A DNA stretch of 32,321 nucleotides from positions 1-32,321 of the forward strand of contig SGYJ01000006.1 in NCBI GenBank assembly GCA_004214275.1, written 5' to 3'. Shown one piece after another: positions 1-5,823 of this stretch. Each line of letters starts with the position of its first letter. The stretch's first letter is position 1. The notes below the pieces were generated by a model, which was not told the origin of the DNA, searched no databases, and saw only the letters and a list, made by a program, of their open reading frames with translations. This DNA comes from Acidimicrobiales bacterium. GTDB taxonomy: Bacteria > Actinomycetota > Acidimicrobiia > Acidimicrobiales > Poriferisodalaceae. The position numbers and the translations under genes were made by a program.

Positions 1-1240
1 GTAGTTCTTCAATGGCAGCACGCAGATTGAAAAGATTGTTTGCCGATCCGATCTCGATCGCGAGAGGCACGTTGCTGTCATAGCCAACGACACCGCTTTC
101 GTTTTTGAGACTGATTTCGACGGCGGTGACTTTCCCGGCTTCAATCAAATCGAGTACTGAGTTTTTGAGACCTTGATGCGCCCACGCCGCAGCGCTCACG
201 TGAACTCCCTGAGTTCTGGGGTAAGCGATCGGGACGATCATGTTGAACGTGCTTGTGTTGCCAGCTCGATCAATCGCCAAGATCGAAACAGGTCCGGCCG
301 GAGGTTCGTCAAGTTCCAAGATGAACGACCCATCTCGGGTCTCTATTGGCACTCCGCCGACTACCAGAGTTGCCCCAGGTTCGGAGGTGCCAGCAATAGT
401 GACCGGTTCATTCATCGGAACGGGTTCCAAGACTTCTGGTAAACCAATTACAGGCGGAGTGCCGTCAACGCTGAAGTCGACAGAGCGAGATACTTCACCG
501 TAGAGTCGTCTCTTCACAATTAACTCAAGTGAATGGTCACCTTCAGTTAATGGTGGAACCACCCAAACGATTCGGTTCCCATATCTTTGAACACCGCTAA
601 CAGGAAAGTCGTCTAACAACAGTTGAGCTGATCGAGCATTCGCCCCAGCCACAGTGAAAGAAATCTGCGCTCCCTCAATTGAAGTTGGCTGCAGAGCTAC
701 GCCATCCTCGATACCCCCAATTTCAATGGTCACCTGCCGAATTGTGATCAACATTAAAACTATTCCCGCGAGTGTCACTACAGAGGCTGCAGCTAATAAA
801 CCCCAGCGGCGACGCGATGGCGGCTGTTGTGGGACCTGGAGAGGGAAGATTGGGCGGCGAACTGCTTTGCGGTTTTCACGAGTTGGACGAGGCAGCGTCC
901 TTGCGTAAACGGGAGCTTCCTTCTTCACTGGTCGCCAAGGAAAGCCCCACCCTTCGGCAGGGTCGCCACCGTCGTCGTCGGTTCTGGAGTTCGGCTCGCC
1001 CTTCGCCAATGACGGACCAACTTGTCGTCCATGAGACGTAAGTGACCAGCGACCTTCGCCTAGCCCCGGGGTGTGTGGCATGGGGACTGCGAGATCAGTT
1101 CGGTGAAGATGATCCAGTGCGTTCAGGACATCTTCGGCTTCGAGTCCTGTGGCAGCTGAAAGCTCGCTGGGCAAGGCTGTGCCATCACGCGACAACAAAT
1201 GTCGCAGCACCAACTTGTGTTGCGGGGCCAGCAACGGCAT
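1..1240 (-). CDS. Truncated (3' end off the left edge) membrane protein: wHTH-like N-terminus, single TM helix, Ig-like repeats, start of a DUF4015-like (putative glycoside hydrolase) domain
   Basis: Manual reverse-strand translation, frame open from ATG at 1238-1240 to the window edge with no stop: MPLLAPQHKLVLRHLLSRDGTALPSELSAATGLEAEDVLNALDHLHRTD...RRRWGLLAAASVVTLAGIVLMLITIRQV...PVPMNEPVTIAGTSEPGATLVVGG...QGVHVSAAAWAHQGLKNSVLDLIEAGKVTAVEISLKNESGVVGYDSNVPLAIEIGSANNLFNLRAAIEEL. The last part resembles DUF4015 (GVYVTGW..NAVVIDVKDDxGxVxYDSxVPLAxEIGA). Confidence 0.8.
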   Translation of the reverse strand, partial: MPLLAPQHKLVLRHLLSRDGTALPSELSAATGLEAEDVLNALDHLHRTDLAVPMPHTPGLGEGRWSLTSHGRQVGPSLAKGEPNSRTDDDGGDPAEGWGFPWRPVKKEAPVYARTLPRPTRENRKAVRRPIFPLQVPQQPPSRRRWGLLAAASVVTLAGIVLMLITIRQVTIEIGGIEDGVALQPTSIEGAQISFTVAGANARSAQLLLDDFPVSGVQRYGNRIVWVVPPLTEGDHSLELIVKRRLYGEVSRSVDFSVDGTPPVIGLPEVLEPVPMNEPVTIAGTSEPGATLVVGGVPIETRDGSFILELDEPPAGPVSILAIDRAGNTSTFNMIVPIAYPRTQGVHVSAAAWAHQGLKNSVLDLIEAGKVTAVEISLKNESGVVGYDSNVPLAIEIGSANNLFNLRAAIEEL

Positions 1241-1328
1241 CAAGACAAGTTAGTGGCGGAAACGGCAATAGTGACATCGTTGTGCAAGTACAAAGACGAA
1301 AGCCCGTACCAGGTGTAAGTTCCATGTC

Positions 1329-1835
1329 GTGGATGAGGAACAGCGCGAAGTCCTTGATTGGGGTAATTACGGTTTGGCATCTCGTGCCCTAGCCGGGCTA
1401 GTTGCCGAAGATGGCTATCAACCCGACATCGTTCTTGCGATAGCTAGAGGTGGACTTTTCGTTGCTGGCTCACTGGGTTATGCCTTATCGGTGAAAAACC
1501 TATATGTGATGAACGTGGAGTATTACACCGGGGTTGATGAACGACTTGACGTGCCGGTTGTGCTGCCTCCATATGTCGACGTTGTAGACCTGAGGGATAC
1601 TCGAGTTTTGATTGTCGACGATGTAGCGGACACTGGCCACACGTTGGCGTTGGTCCGGAATCATTGTCTTGATGAAGTCGCCGAAGTCCGCACCGCTGTT
1701 CTCTACGAAAAGTCCCGTTCAGTTGTTCAATGTGAATACGTGTGGAAGTACACAGACCAATGGATCAACTTTCCTTGGTCGACCGAACCACCGCTTGTCG
1801 AACCCGGAGACGGTGTCACAGTCCTTGACGCGTGA
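1329..1835 (+). CDS. Phosphoribosyltransferase, hypoxanthine/xanthine-PRTase-like
   Basis: GTG start; PRPP-binding motif VLIVDDVADTGHTL, N-terminal DIVLAIARGGLFVAG, C-terminal INFPWS typical of small purine PRTases. Confidence 0.85.
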   Translation: MDEEQREVLDWGNYGLASRALAGLVAEDGYQPDIVLAIARGGLFVAGSLGYALSVKNLYVMNVEYYTGVDERLDVPVVLPPYVDVVDLRDTRVLIVDDVADTGHTLALVRNHCLDEVAEVRTAVLYEKSRSVVQCEYVWKYTDQWINFPWSTEPPLVEPGDGVTVLDA

Positions 1836-2846: not shown

Positions 2847-3596
2847 TTGAGCAATCGTCGTACTGTCATTATCACCACATGCGTTTTGCTCGTCGTTGTA
2901 GGAGCAATGGGAGCCTACGGCGCATGGAGAGTCCTGTCCGCTGCCCCTGAGGAAGTCTCTTTGGATGCCGCAGTTGCCGCGGTAGAGGAGGAACAAGCTT
3001 CTAATGATGGCGTCGAAAAAGTGGCTGACACTGCTGACGCCCTATCTACGGATGGTGTTTGGCATGTCGACACGGACTCAGGCAGCTTCAGCTTCGAGGA
3101 GGCTTCGGGATCCTTTGTTGGTTTCAGGGTCAAGGAAGAACTTGTCAAGATTGGAGACATAACGGCAGTCGGACGGACAGACCAAGTCGAAGGCGAACTA
3201 TCGATTCAGAATGGTCAGCTTGTTTCAGTTTTGATCACTGCCGACTTATCGGCGATTGTCACCAATGATTCGCGACGAGACAACGCAGCACGCAACGCCA
3301 TGAACGTGAGAGAGAATCCCATAGCTAGCTTCGTTCTTGATCAACCTGTAGACCTGCCCGAGACCGACGGATCGCAAATAAGTTTGCAGGCCGAAGGTCA
3401 ACTGACAGTTAACGGAATAACCAAAGCTGTGATCTTTGAACTTGAAGCTAAGGCTGTTGCACGATCCATTGTGGTTGTGGGCCAGACGGAAGTTATTTTT
3501 GCTGATTACGACATAGCGGTCCCGTCAGCCAGCATTGTCGTATCAGCTGAAGACCGTGGTGTAGTGGAGTTCCAGTTACTGTTTGTTCGCCGCTGA
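2847..3596 (+). CDS. Membrane-anchored YceI-family protein
   Basis: N-terminal TM segment (TVIITTCVLLVVVGAMGAYGAW) then YceI-like region (DGVWHVDTDSGSFSFE...VGFRVKEEL...RDNAARNAMNVRENPIASFVL...GQLTVNGITKAV). Confidence 0.8.
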   Translation: MSNRRTVIITTCVLLVVVGAMGAYGAWRVLSAAPEEVSLDAAVAAVEEEQASNDGVEKVADTADALSTDGVWHVDTDSGSFSFEEASGSFVGFRVKEELVKIGDITAVGRTDQVEGELSIQNGQLVSVLITADLSAIVTNDSRRDNAARNAMNVRENPIASFVLDQPVDLPETDGSQISLQAEGQLTVNGITKAVIFELEAKAVARSIVVVGQTEVIFADYDIAVPSASIVVSAEDRGVVEFQLLFVRR

Positions 3597-3600
3597 GCTG

Positions 3601-5823
3601 CTATTCACGCATCATCTCTGCGCGACCCATGCCTTCACCGTCGAGGATTTGGTCGTCGGCCAGATCGATCGTGACCTTTACCAATTCACCGGTGAAAACA
3701 TTCGGGGTTTGGTAGTGAGATACACCAGTGCCGCGATCCAGGCCGATATCAAGTCCGGACCAAGAAATCATTAGGAAGAAAATATTCTCTGTTTCGTGGC
3801 TAGCAACAACTTGACCATCAATCATCAAAGTTCCCACGCCCCTAGTTCCGCTTGAGGAACGCGCCATATGAAAGCCGAGACTTTCCGACCCTTGAGGGAC
3901 GGGATCAGGTGAACGAACCATTTGATGGCTGCCACCGATATTGAGATCATGAACTAGATGGCCGTCACCATCTATATAGAGGCTGTACCCAGAGGTGGCG
4001 TCTCCGTGTGCAATTAAGACACCGGAGACACCGGACTTGGTCGGCTTAACTAGTGCCTCTAAACGATAACTGCGACTTCTTAGATCGGGTGCAACATCGC
4101 TGGGTAAATGACCCATGCCTTTCCAAAAGGTGAAAAATTTTCGACCACCCAGATGACGTGCGGCATTTTCAGCGAAACGTTCAGCGAAACGGTCGTCAAG
4201 TGGCAACACCTGGTGCATGCGTGCCTGCTCCCACCACAAATCAACCATTTCGTTAAGGAGTTCAGGTTCAGTTTGCGATCGGTCTTTGGTTTCGTTGAAG
4301 TCGTCAAGGAGGTTGAAAAGTTCCCATTTGTCATCTTCGTATGGTGTGCCAGGGGGGTGGTACGCGACTGCCTTCCACCCATTGTGAACGATTCCTCTGT
4401 GGCCAAACATCTCGAAATATTGGGTTGTCTTTCCGGAGTCAGCTTCGGGATCATTCAGAGTCGAAGCGAAACTGACCCCTTCGATGGGCTTTTGTTGCAC
4501 TCCGTTGACCGATTCAGGAGCGTCAATGCCTATGCAATCAAGCAAAGTAGGGACGATGTCACATGCGTGACAAAACTGATCTCTTAGGCCCGGATGATTG
4601 ATGCGGCGCGGCCAATGAACGACCAAGGGGTCTCTCACACCTCCGCCGTGGGTGTTTTGCTTGTAACGACGTAACGGGGTGTTCGCCGCCATTGACCAAC
4701 CCCATGGAAAATTGCTGTGAGTATCCGGCCCGCCAATGTCACCTATTCGGTCAAATTTGTCGTCCATGGACTCAGGAAGTCCGTTGTATGGCCCCATGGC
4801 ATTGACGAAACCAAGTGGGCCTCCTTCCTGGCTTGCACCGTTATCAGAAAGAACCATGATCATGGTGTTATCGATTTCACCTGAAGTCCTCAAATGATCG
4901 ATGAGTCGCGCTAAGTGTTGGTCGGCGTGATGCAACATCGCCGCGTAGGCAGCTTGAAGACGTGTCGCCACTCGCTTGGTTACATCATCAATTTCTGACC
5001 ATGCTTCAACGAAATCATTTCGGGCCGGTAACTCTGTTCCCTCAGGAACGACCCCAAGCTCTATTTGCTTAGCTAACCGTTCAGTCCGTTCAACATCCCA
5101 TCCGCGACGAAACACCTGATCGTAGTGATCGATTAATTCCTTTGGGGCCTGGTGGGGGGCGTGACATGCCCCAAGCCCAATCAACGTCATCCAAGGTGTT
5201 CCCGGGCTGCTAGCCGTGTGTGAAGCGATGAATTCAATGGACTTATCGAAGAGATCCTCCGTTAAGTGGTATCCGCTCCCAAAGGTGCCTGGTGCGCTTA
5301 TGTGGCTGTTATCGAGAATCAACTCTGGCGAATAGTGGTCTGTTTCGGCGTCAAGGAAGCCATAGAAACGGTCGAACCCTCTCCCCAGTGGCCAGCCGTC
5401 AAATGGCCCGGTAGGACCAGATTCGGTCAAAGGCGTTACGTGCCATTTGCCCACCATGTAGTTCCTGTAGCCCTGAGGTCTCAGAATTTCAGCAAGGGTG
5501 CACGTGTCTCGACTGATTTTGCCTCTATATCCGGGGTACCCACTATCGAAGTTAGCTAGACAACCAACACCCGTTGAATGATGATTTCGACCGGTTAACA
5601 GGGCTGCTCGAGTTGTCGAACACATAGCAGTCGTGTGAAAGCCCGTATAACGGAGACCGTTGACTGCTAGCTGGTCAATTGTTGGAGTGGAAATAGGCGA
5701 TCCGTAACAACCGAAATCAGAGAAGCCGACGTCATCGAATAGAACTATCAAAATGTTGGGGCTGTCTTGTGGTGGCGTTGGACCTGCCGGCCAGTTTGGG
5801 ATGACGTCGATATCTGAACTCAC
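3601..5823 (-). CDS. Arylsulfatase A-type sulfatase with C-terminal jelly-roll-like extension
   Basis: PNILIVLFDDVGFSDFGCYGSPISTPTIDQLA; active-site region MCSTTRAALLTGRNHHSTGVG; GKWH and NGAS motifs; 740 aa. Confidence 0.93.
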   Translation of the reverse strand: MSSDIDVIPNWPAGPTPPQDSPNILIVLFDDVGFSDFGCYGSPISTPTIDQLAVNGLRYTGFHTTAMCSTTRAALLTGRNHHSTGVGCLANFDSGYPGYRGKISRDTCTLAEILRPQGYRNYMVGKWHVTPLTESGPTGPFDGWPLGRGFDRFYGFLDAETDHYSPELILDNSHISAPGTFGSGYHLTEDLFDKSIEFIASHTASSPGTPWMTLIGLGACHAPHQAPKELIDHYDQVFRRGWDVERTERLAKQIELGVVPEGTELPARNDFVEAWSEIDDVTKRVATRLQAAYAAMLHHADQHLARLIDHLRTSGEIDNTMIMVLSDNGASQEGGPLGFVNAMGPYNGLPESMDDKFDRIGDIGGPDTHSNFPWGWSMAANTPLRRYKQNTHGGGVRDPLVVHWPRRINHPGLRDQFCHACDIVPTLLDCIGIDAPESVNGVQQKPIEGVSFASTLNDPEADSGKTTQYFEMFGHRGIVHNGWKAVAYHPPGTPYEDDKWELFNLLDDFNETKDRSQTEPELLNEMVDLWWEQARMHQVLPLDDRFAERFAENAARHLGGRKFFTFWKGMGHLPSDVAPDLRSRSYRLEALVKPTKSGVSGVLIAHGDATSGYSLYIDGDGHLVHDLNIGGSHQMVRSPDPVPQGSESLGFHMARSSSGTRGVGTLMIDGQVVASHETENIFFLMISWSGLDIGLDRGTGVSHYQTPNVFTGELVKVTIDLADDQILDGEGMGRAEMMRE

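Follow-up and report, generated by a model that had tools for sequence, protein, structure and literature searches.

A MarR-like winged helix on the cytoplasmic tail of a probable envelope glycosidase in one family of Acidimicrobiales: a possible protein-docking module

The HTH domain of RodZ binds MreB and not DNA (PMC6946637). Among transmembrane transcription regulators the single-pass layout is the commonest, accounting for 56% of them (PMC10269533). On the outer side of the membrane, the GHL10 hydrolases DigH (PMC12288456) and Cwp19 (PMC6016235) cleave peptidoglycan. For DUF4015, a literature search found no reported activity or function; YkyA, which is fused to DUF4015 in some proteins, also occurs fused to polysaccharide deacetylases (PMC12700454). 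Here we describe a membrane-anchored DUF4015 protein that is a lineage-specific combination of known domains. We give an even chance to its being an envelope glycosidase whose MarR-like winged helix has been converted to a protein-docking module, in a layout resembling that of RodZ.

The window analyzed here (32,321 nucleotides from an Acidimicrobiales bacterium) is an entire contig, C74, of a fragmented MAG that is 77.6% complete, so the assembly contains no left flank of the gene. As the initial sequence-only reading had noted, a reverse-strand frame of more than 410 residues runs off the left edge; it comprises 413 codons from the ATG at position 1240. A profile search of the whole assembly found no second DUF4015 fragment, the sole copy being that of the window (model positions 1–70). 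Homologues are present in 34 of the 61 relatives (E-values down to 1e-266), mostly as intact frames of 663–701 codons, and therefore the frame is not a chance one. The 27 loci recovered by the GTDB genome scan come from entries whose titles name Acidimicrobiales or Acidimicrobiaceae MAGs, including the marine actinobacterium MedAcidi-G3. Since the window copy sits at a contig end, it might be argued that two adjoining genes were fused by the assembly or that the frame is a frameshift artefact. However, the same uninterrupted frame occurs in some 30 further genomes that stem from separate projects, and these orthologues refute the suggestion, which is hardly credible.

The start codon is well fixed by three features: stop codons 3–4 codons upstream in close relatives, the N-terminus MPLLAP kept in nearly all orthologue translations (~660 residues), and a −10-like TAACTT at positions 1247–1252, 6 nt 5′ of the ATG. 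A similar TAnnnT hexamer lies ~6 nt 5′ of the start codon in most orthologue upstream regions. This spacing is typical of leaderless actinobacterial genes, which supports the start and, with it, the N-terminal head as part of the protein. The divergent phosphoribosyltransferase gene looks leaderless as well. We conclude that positions 1–1240 of the reverse strand carry the 5′ portion of a genuine gene, coding for the first 413 of ~660 residues (Table 1).

Table 1. Features of the DUF4015 gene and its upstream region in the window
Feature	Positions	Strand	Evidence
Partial CDS (413 codons, without its 3′ end) of a membrane-anchored DUF4015 protein of ~660 aa	2–1240	−	Frame and orthologues
Cytoplasmic winged-helix head, aa 1–79 (arm MPLLA; α1 6–17; α2 24–31; α3 35–47; wing ~49–68; α4 69–79)	1004–1240	−	AlphaFold2, Foldseek, Pfam HTH families, PDB profile
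Juxtamembrane motif DPAEGWGFPWRPxKxEAPxYA, aa 93–113	902–964	−	14 of 21 positions invariant
Variable basic linker, aa 114–148	797–901	−	Net charge of aa 81–150, +5 to +7
Lone TM helix, ~aa 149–168	737–796	−	Hydropathy; AlphaFold helix 151–168
First Ig-like (BiPBP_C-like) extracytoplasmic domain, aa 172–241	518–727	−	Pfam BiPBP_C, 17.1 bits (cut-off 26.8)
Second Ig-like (Big_6-like) domain, aa 280–331	248–403	−	Pfam Big_6, 18.6 bits (cut-off 27.6)
Start of DUF4015 TIM-barrel, model positions 1–70 of 313; remainder past contig end	2–208	−	Pfam PF13200
Divergent intergenic region, 88 bp, with boxes GGAASTTACACC, GATGTMACT and TARCTT	1241–1328	.	Conserved over 18 sequences
Phosphoribosyltransferase gene, divergent neighbour, not part of the system	1329–1835	+	Pfam of the L030 orthologue

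The DUF4015 segment proposed from the sequence is well supported. The cut-off window copy scores 31 bits against PF13200 (cut-off 27), and full-length relatives contain the complete domain, with 275.6 bits (L038; model positions 1–313 of 313) and 276.3 bits. The solved DUF4015 protein, 4s1a, is matched both in sequence (E = 1.2e-34) and in fold (TM-score 0.86), followed among the fold matches by glycosidases of the amylase/GH13, GH31 and GH36 types. Asp490, located in the DYxRxP motif where the fourth strand ends, is invariant in every sequence compared and, judging from the TIM-barrel glycosidase fold, would suit a retained catalytic aspartate. Asp429 and Asp561, too, are kept in the subfamily. 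Asp537 is kept by 85% of other DUF4015 proteins, but throughout the subfamily, headed or head-less, this position holds Ser or Ala; because of this, catalysis is not certain and the chemistry may differ. Among the headed proteins, 142 of the 306 DUF4015 positions are invariant, the strongest constraint of any folded domain. Taken as a whole, the extracytoplasmic part is probably a glycosidase acting on a cell-envelope glycan. A role in wall remodelling is plausible by analogy only, as the GHL10 family has peptidoglycan-cleaving members.

Between the head and the barrel, the remaining anatomy largely agrees with what had been read from the sequence. The linker is indeed basic. By the positive-inside rule, the positive net charge of aa 81–150, on the cytoplasmic side of the helix, places the N-terminus inside, and hydropathy agrees with the single TM helix of the proposed N-in topology. 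As to the proposed Ig-like repeats, two Ig-like regions were matched, though both Pfam scores fall under the cut-offs. In the full-length AlphaFold model, the linker and the C-terminal end are of low confidence (mean pLDDT 65), and the orientation of domains was not used. The stretch between the head and the juxtamembrane motif is variable. The motif itself has one match per genome, with one extra match in a single genome; beyond this isolated extra match, GWGFPW was not found in other proteins.

The N-terminal head is predicted to be a winged helix (aa 6–79, topology α1-β-α2-α3-β-wing-β-α4). The AlphaFold2 model, based on 26 sequences, has a mean pLDDT of 82 and contains helices 6–17, 24–31, 35–47 and 69–79 and strands 51–53 and 65–67. 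Foldseek returned 42 PDB matches at E ≤ 0.001, the top ones being the AspA centromere-binding protein and MarR-family proteins, with TM-scores mostly of 0.73–0.79. At the sequence level, 26 members matched many Pfam HTH families with weak scores (MarR_2 in 13 members; HTH_24 with the best E-value of 2e-5), and the head profile matched mostly winged-helix proteins among PDB sequences (E-values of 0.01–1.5). In the window copy, no Pfam HTH family was found above the cut-off, and the gathering score of MarR_2 is not reached by the head (16.3 versus 27 bits). Thus, the winged-helix fold suggested initially is borne out. The ‘basic wing’ of the same reading was wrong: the wing has one or two Lys/Arg residues, and the whole head is near neutral.

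Does the head read DNA? The best fold matches of the winged helix are MarR-type DNA-binding proteins, and together with the basic tail and the single-pass layout common among such regulators this might point to a transmembrane transcription regulator similar to CadC or ToxR, in which the Ig-like and DUF4015 part would sense or process glycan while the membrane-tethered winged helix binds DNA. For comparison, we aligned the heads with 19 MarR-type regulators from the same order over the HTH and the wing. In this region the heads have 2, 4, 2, 2, 2 and 2 Lys/Arg residues against 4–9 (mean 6.7) in the controls, an indication rather than a proof, given that the heads stand for no more than three independent lineages and that all controls are of the MarR type. 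Winged helices of other types bind DNA with fewer basic residues. The net charge of the same region is −6 to 0 in the heads and −4 to +5 in the controls; the DxR motif of the wing, present in most of the controls, occurs in none of the heads. Such an acidic to neutral DNA face argues against a regulator, and so does the conservation pattern. Between genera, only 1 of 13 positions of the recognition helix (helix 3) is invariant, versus 6 of 11 in helix 4, 4 of 5 in the arm and 14 of 21 in the juxtamembrane motif. Within the closest genera (g1, g2, g4 and g7) there is little variation in the recognition helix (entropy 0.27), which favours a regulator. Against this, DUF4015 is the most constrained folded region, as expected for an enzyme.

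The divergent upstream region bears on the same question. Conserved boxes are found at this locus only, in 18 genomes, which might suggest a binding site of the head. Nevertheless, the likeliest reading of the boxes is that of promoter elements: of the three present in the closest genera, two match the −10 elements of the divergently transcribed genes and the third is spaced like a −35 element, and in genus g5, which has a different upstream gene, the third box is absent. We also considered a regulon recognized through the paired boxes and rejected it, as they occur once per genome, at this locus. Upstream regions of different genera have no operator-like palindrome in common. In genus g4, a 7-bp inverted repeat (AGTTACA/TGTAACT) is made up of the first two boxes, which are separated by a few tens of bp. 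Of the one-component sensor proposed from the sequence, the winged-helix fold and the TM helix stand; the few basic residues, the variable helix 3 and the lack of a cross-genus operator speak against it. We therefore consider a DNA-binding regulator unlikely. Its stronger version, in which an active envelope glycosidase serves as the sensor, so that cleavage or binding of glycan outside would be read by a chromosome-bound winged helix, is very unlikely.

Gene neighbours say nothing on the wall. They include phosphoribosyltransferase, QueF, AMP-dependent ligase, luciferase-like monooxygenases and a beta-lactamase-fold gene, in an order that varies between genera. An operon, or guilt by association in general, was rejected, since gene order differs and the phosphoribosyltransferase retained by head-less genera is not flanked by this gene. 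In the window, a membrane-anchored or secreted YceI-domain protein (2847–3596) adjoins a GNAT gene (2322–2843), with QueF (1875–2306) and a sulfatase (3601–5823) nearby on the opposite strand to these two.

To trace the origin of the head, we considered the protein in a wider taxonomic context. PF13200 is patchy in the class (64 of 148 sampled genomes), and in those examined DUF4015 comes after a signal peptide or a TM helix, and no sizeable cytoplasmic domain is apparent. Five homologues (four at the order level and one at the class level) have the TM-Ig-DUF4015 arrangement without the head; they have the DYxRRPEG-like and VFGI signature in common with the headed proteins. In place of the head, the head-less homologues have a short basic N-terminal tail. 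Three of them (L049, L050 and L051) have a common motif, [ST]L-x-DIPGA, before this tail, possibly a docking peptide in the place of the head. In a tree of the DUF4015 part, all headed proteins form one clade (support 100/99, one change), and the tree fits a single gain of the head in the ancestor of the headed family members. A head-profile search in 298 genomes of the order revealed the head in this family only, where 32 of 39 genomes, covering 6 of 10 genera, carry the protein, always headed. These are marine and sponge-associated Acidimicrobiia of one Acidimicrobiales family, to which the fusion is restricted. In one genome of the same genus that lacks the gene, the neighbouring phosphoribosyltransferase is gone too, making an assembly gap likely; four other genera have the phosphoribosyltransferase, with no headed gene adjoining it. 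The idea of the head as a mobile module elsewhere in the order was rejected, as only weak matches were obtained there, mostly to ordinary regulators and to a HemD-like fusion. In the latter, a HemD-like (uroporphyrinogen-III synthase-like) protein (L098), a C-terminal winged-helix-like stretch resembles the head (LFTPAERRVLRTLLSRGGTA).

The existence of homologues with nothing but a short basic tail, and the faster evolution of the head compared to the DUF4015 part, could also mean that a gene fusion left the protein with a cytoplasmic cap that is passive or vestigial and fixes topology or stability only, the whole being no more than a DUF4015 enzyme with an anchor. We regard this as quite unlikely. 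The head is kept in all 32 family members found, across genera that are ~50% identical, with 19 invariant head positions, whereas decay would be expected of a cap; moreover, the adjoining motif is even more conserved than the head.

The DNA face poor in Lys/Arg, the variable recognition helix and the fixed GWGFPW next to it all point to docking, and on surface chemistry and conservation we favour it over a DNA-reading regulator. The protein would be a type II (N-in) membrane protein, whose two Ig-like spacers and DUF4015 TIM-barrel act outside on an envelope glycan. In the ancestor of the headed proteins, the cytoplasmic tail would have acquired a MarR-like winged helix. The head would no longer read DNA; with the adjoining invariant GWGFPW motif, it may now dock the enzyme either to itself or to some cytoplasmic protein. 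MreB is present in 39 of 39 family genomes, in most of them as two paralogues, and most headed genomes have no clear match to the RodZ-type HTH_25, the head-less genera being alike. We considered whether the head replaces RodZ and decided against it, since the head-less genera also have MreB and no clear RodZ HTH, so that presence of the head does not follow loss of RodZ.

If the head docks, it would join RodZ as a second and apparently independent example of an HTH-type fold used as a cytoplasmic handle for envelope machinery, and this in a lineage that yielded no clear RodZ HTH. DUF4015, a widespread glycosidase-like family, would also gain a first cellular context. If the head binds DNA instead, a single membrane-spanning molecule would combine an enzyme with a transcription factor. 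In both cases, the small cytoplasmic part lends itself to testing.

How does the protein compare with known systems? Like DigH and Cwp19, it belongs among envelope glycosidase-like enzymes; they are of the GHL10 (DUF187) type, a separate Pfam family from DUF4015, and PF02638 (GHL10) is absent among its Pfam matches at E ≤ 1 for the window copy and E ≤ 0.1 for the full-length relatives. With DUF4015 proteins, typified by the solved Cthe_0052 (4s1a), it has in common the full domain (276 bits), the fold and the invariant FxDP, DYxRxP and YPSH-type motifs, and yet it falls into a divergent subfamily (WDYMRRPEG; SVFGI for SADIFG). In the other DUF4015 proteins examined, the domain is accompanied just by a signal peptide or TM helix, or is joined to YkyA (PMC12700454), and none of those outside this Acidimicrobiales family has a winged helix. 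The head has the winged-helix topology of the MarR family and AspA; unlike them, it is below the MarR_2 cut-off, leaves no room for the MarR dimerisation helices and has a DNA face that is not basic. The winged helix of CadC and ToxR is of the OmpR type. These regulators (PMC10269533) resemble the window protein in having a DNA-binding-type fold, one TM helix and a sensor-like outside part; here, the DNA-contact signature is missing and the outside part is enzyme-like. In RodZ the HTH is of the Xre type and a glycosidase-like domain is absent, whereas the window protein has a MarR-like winged helix, with no Xre-type HTH_25 among the Pfam matches shown for the head. RodZ and the window protein nevertheless have the same layout: a cytoplasmic HTH domain, a basic juxtamembrane stretch, a single TM helix and an extracytoplasmic part.
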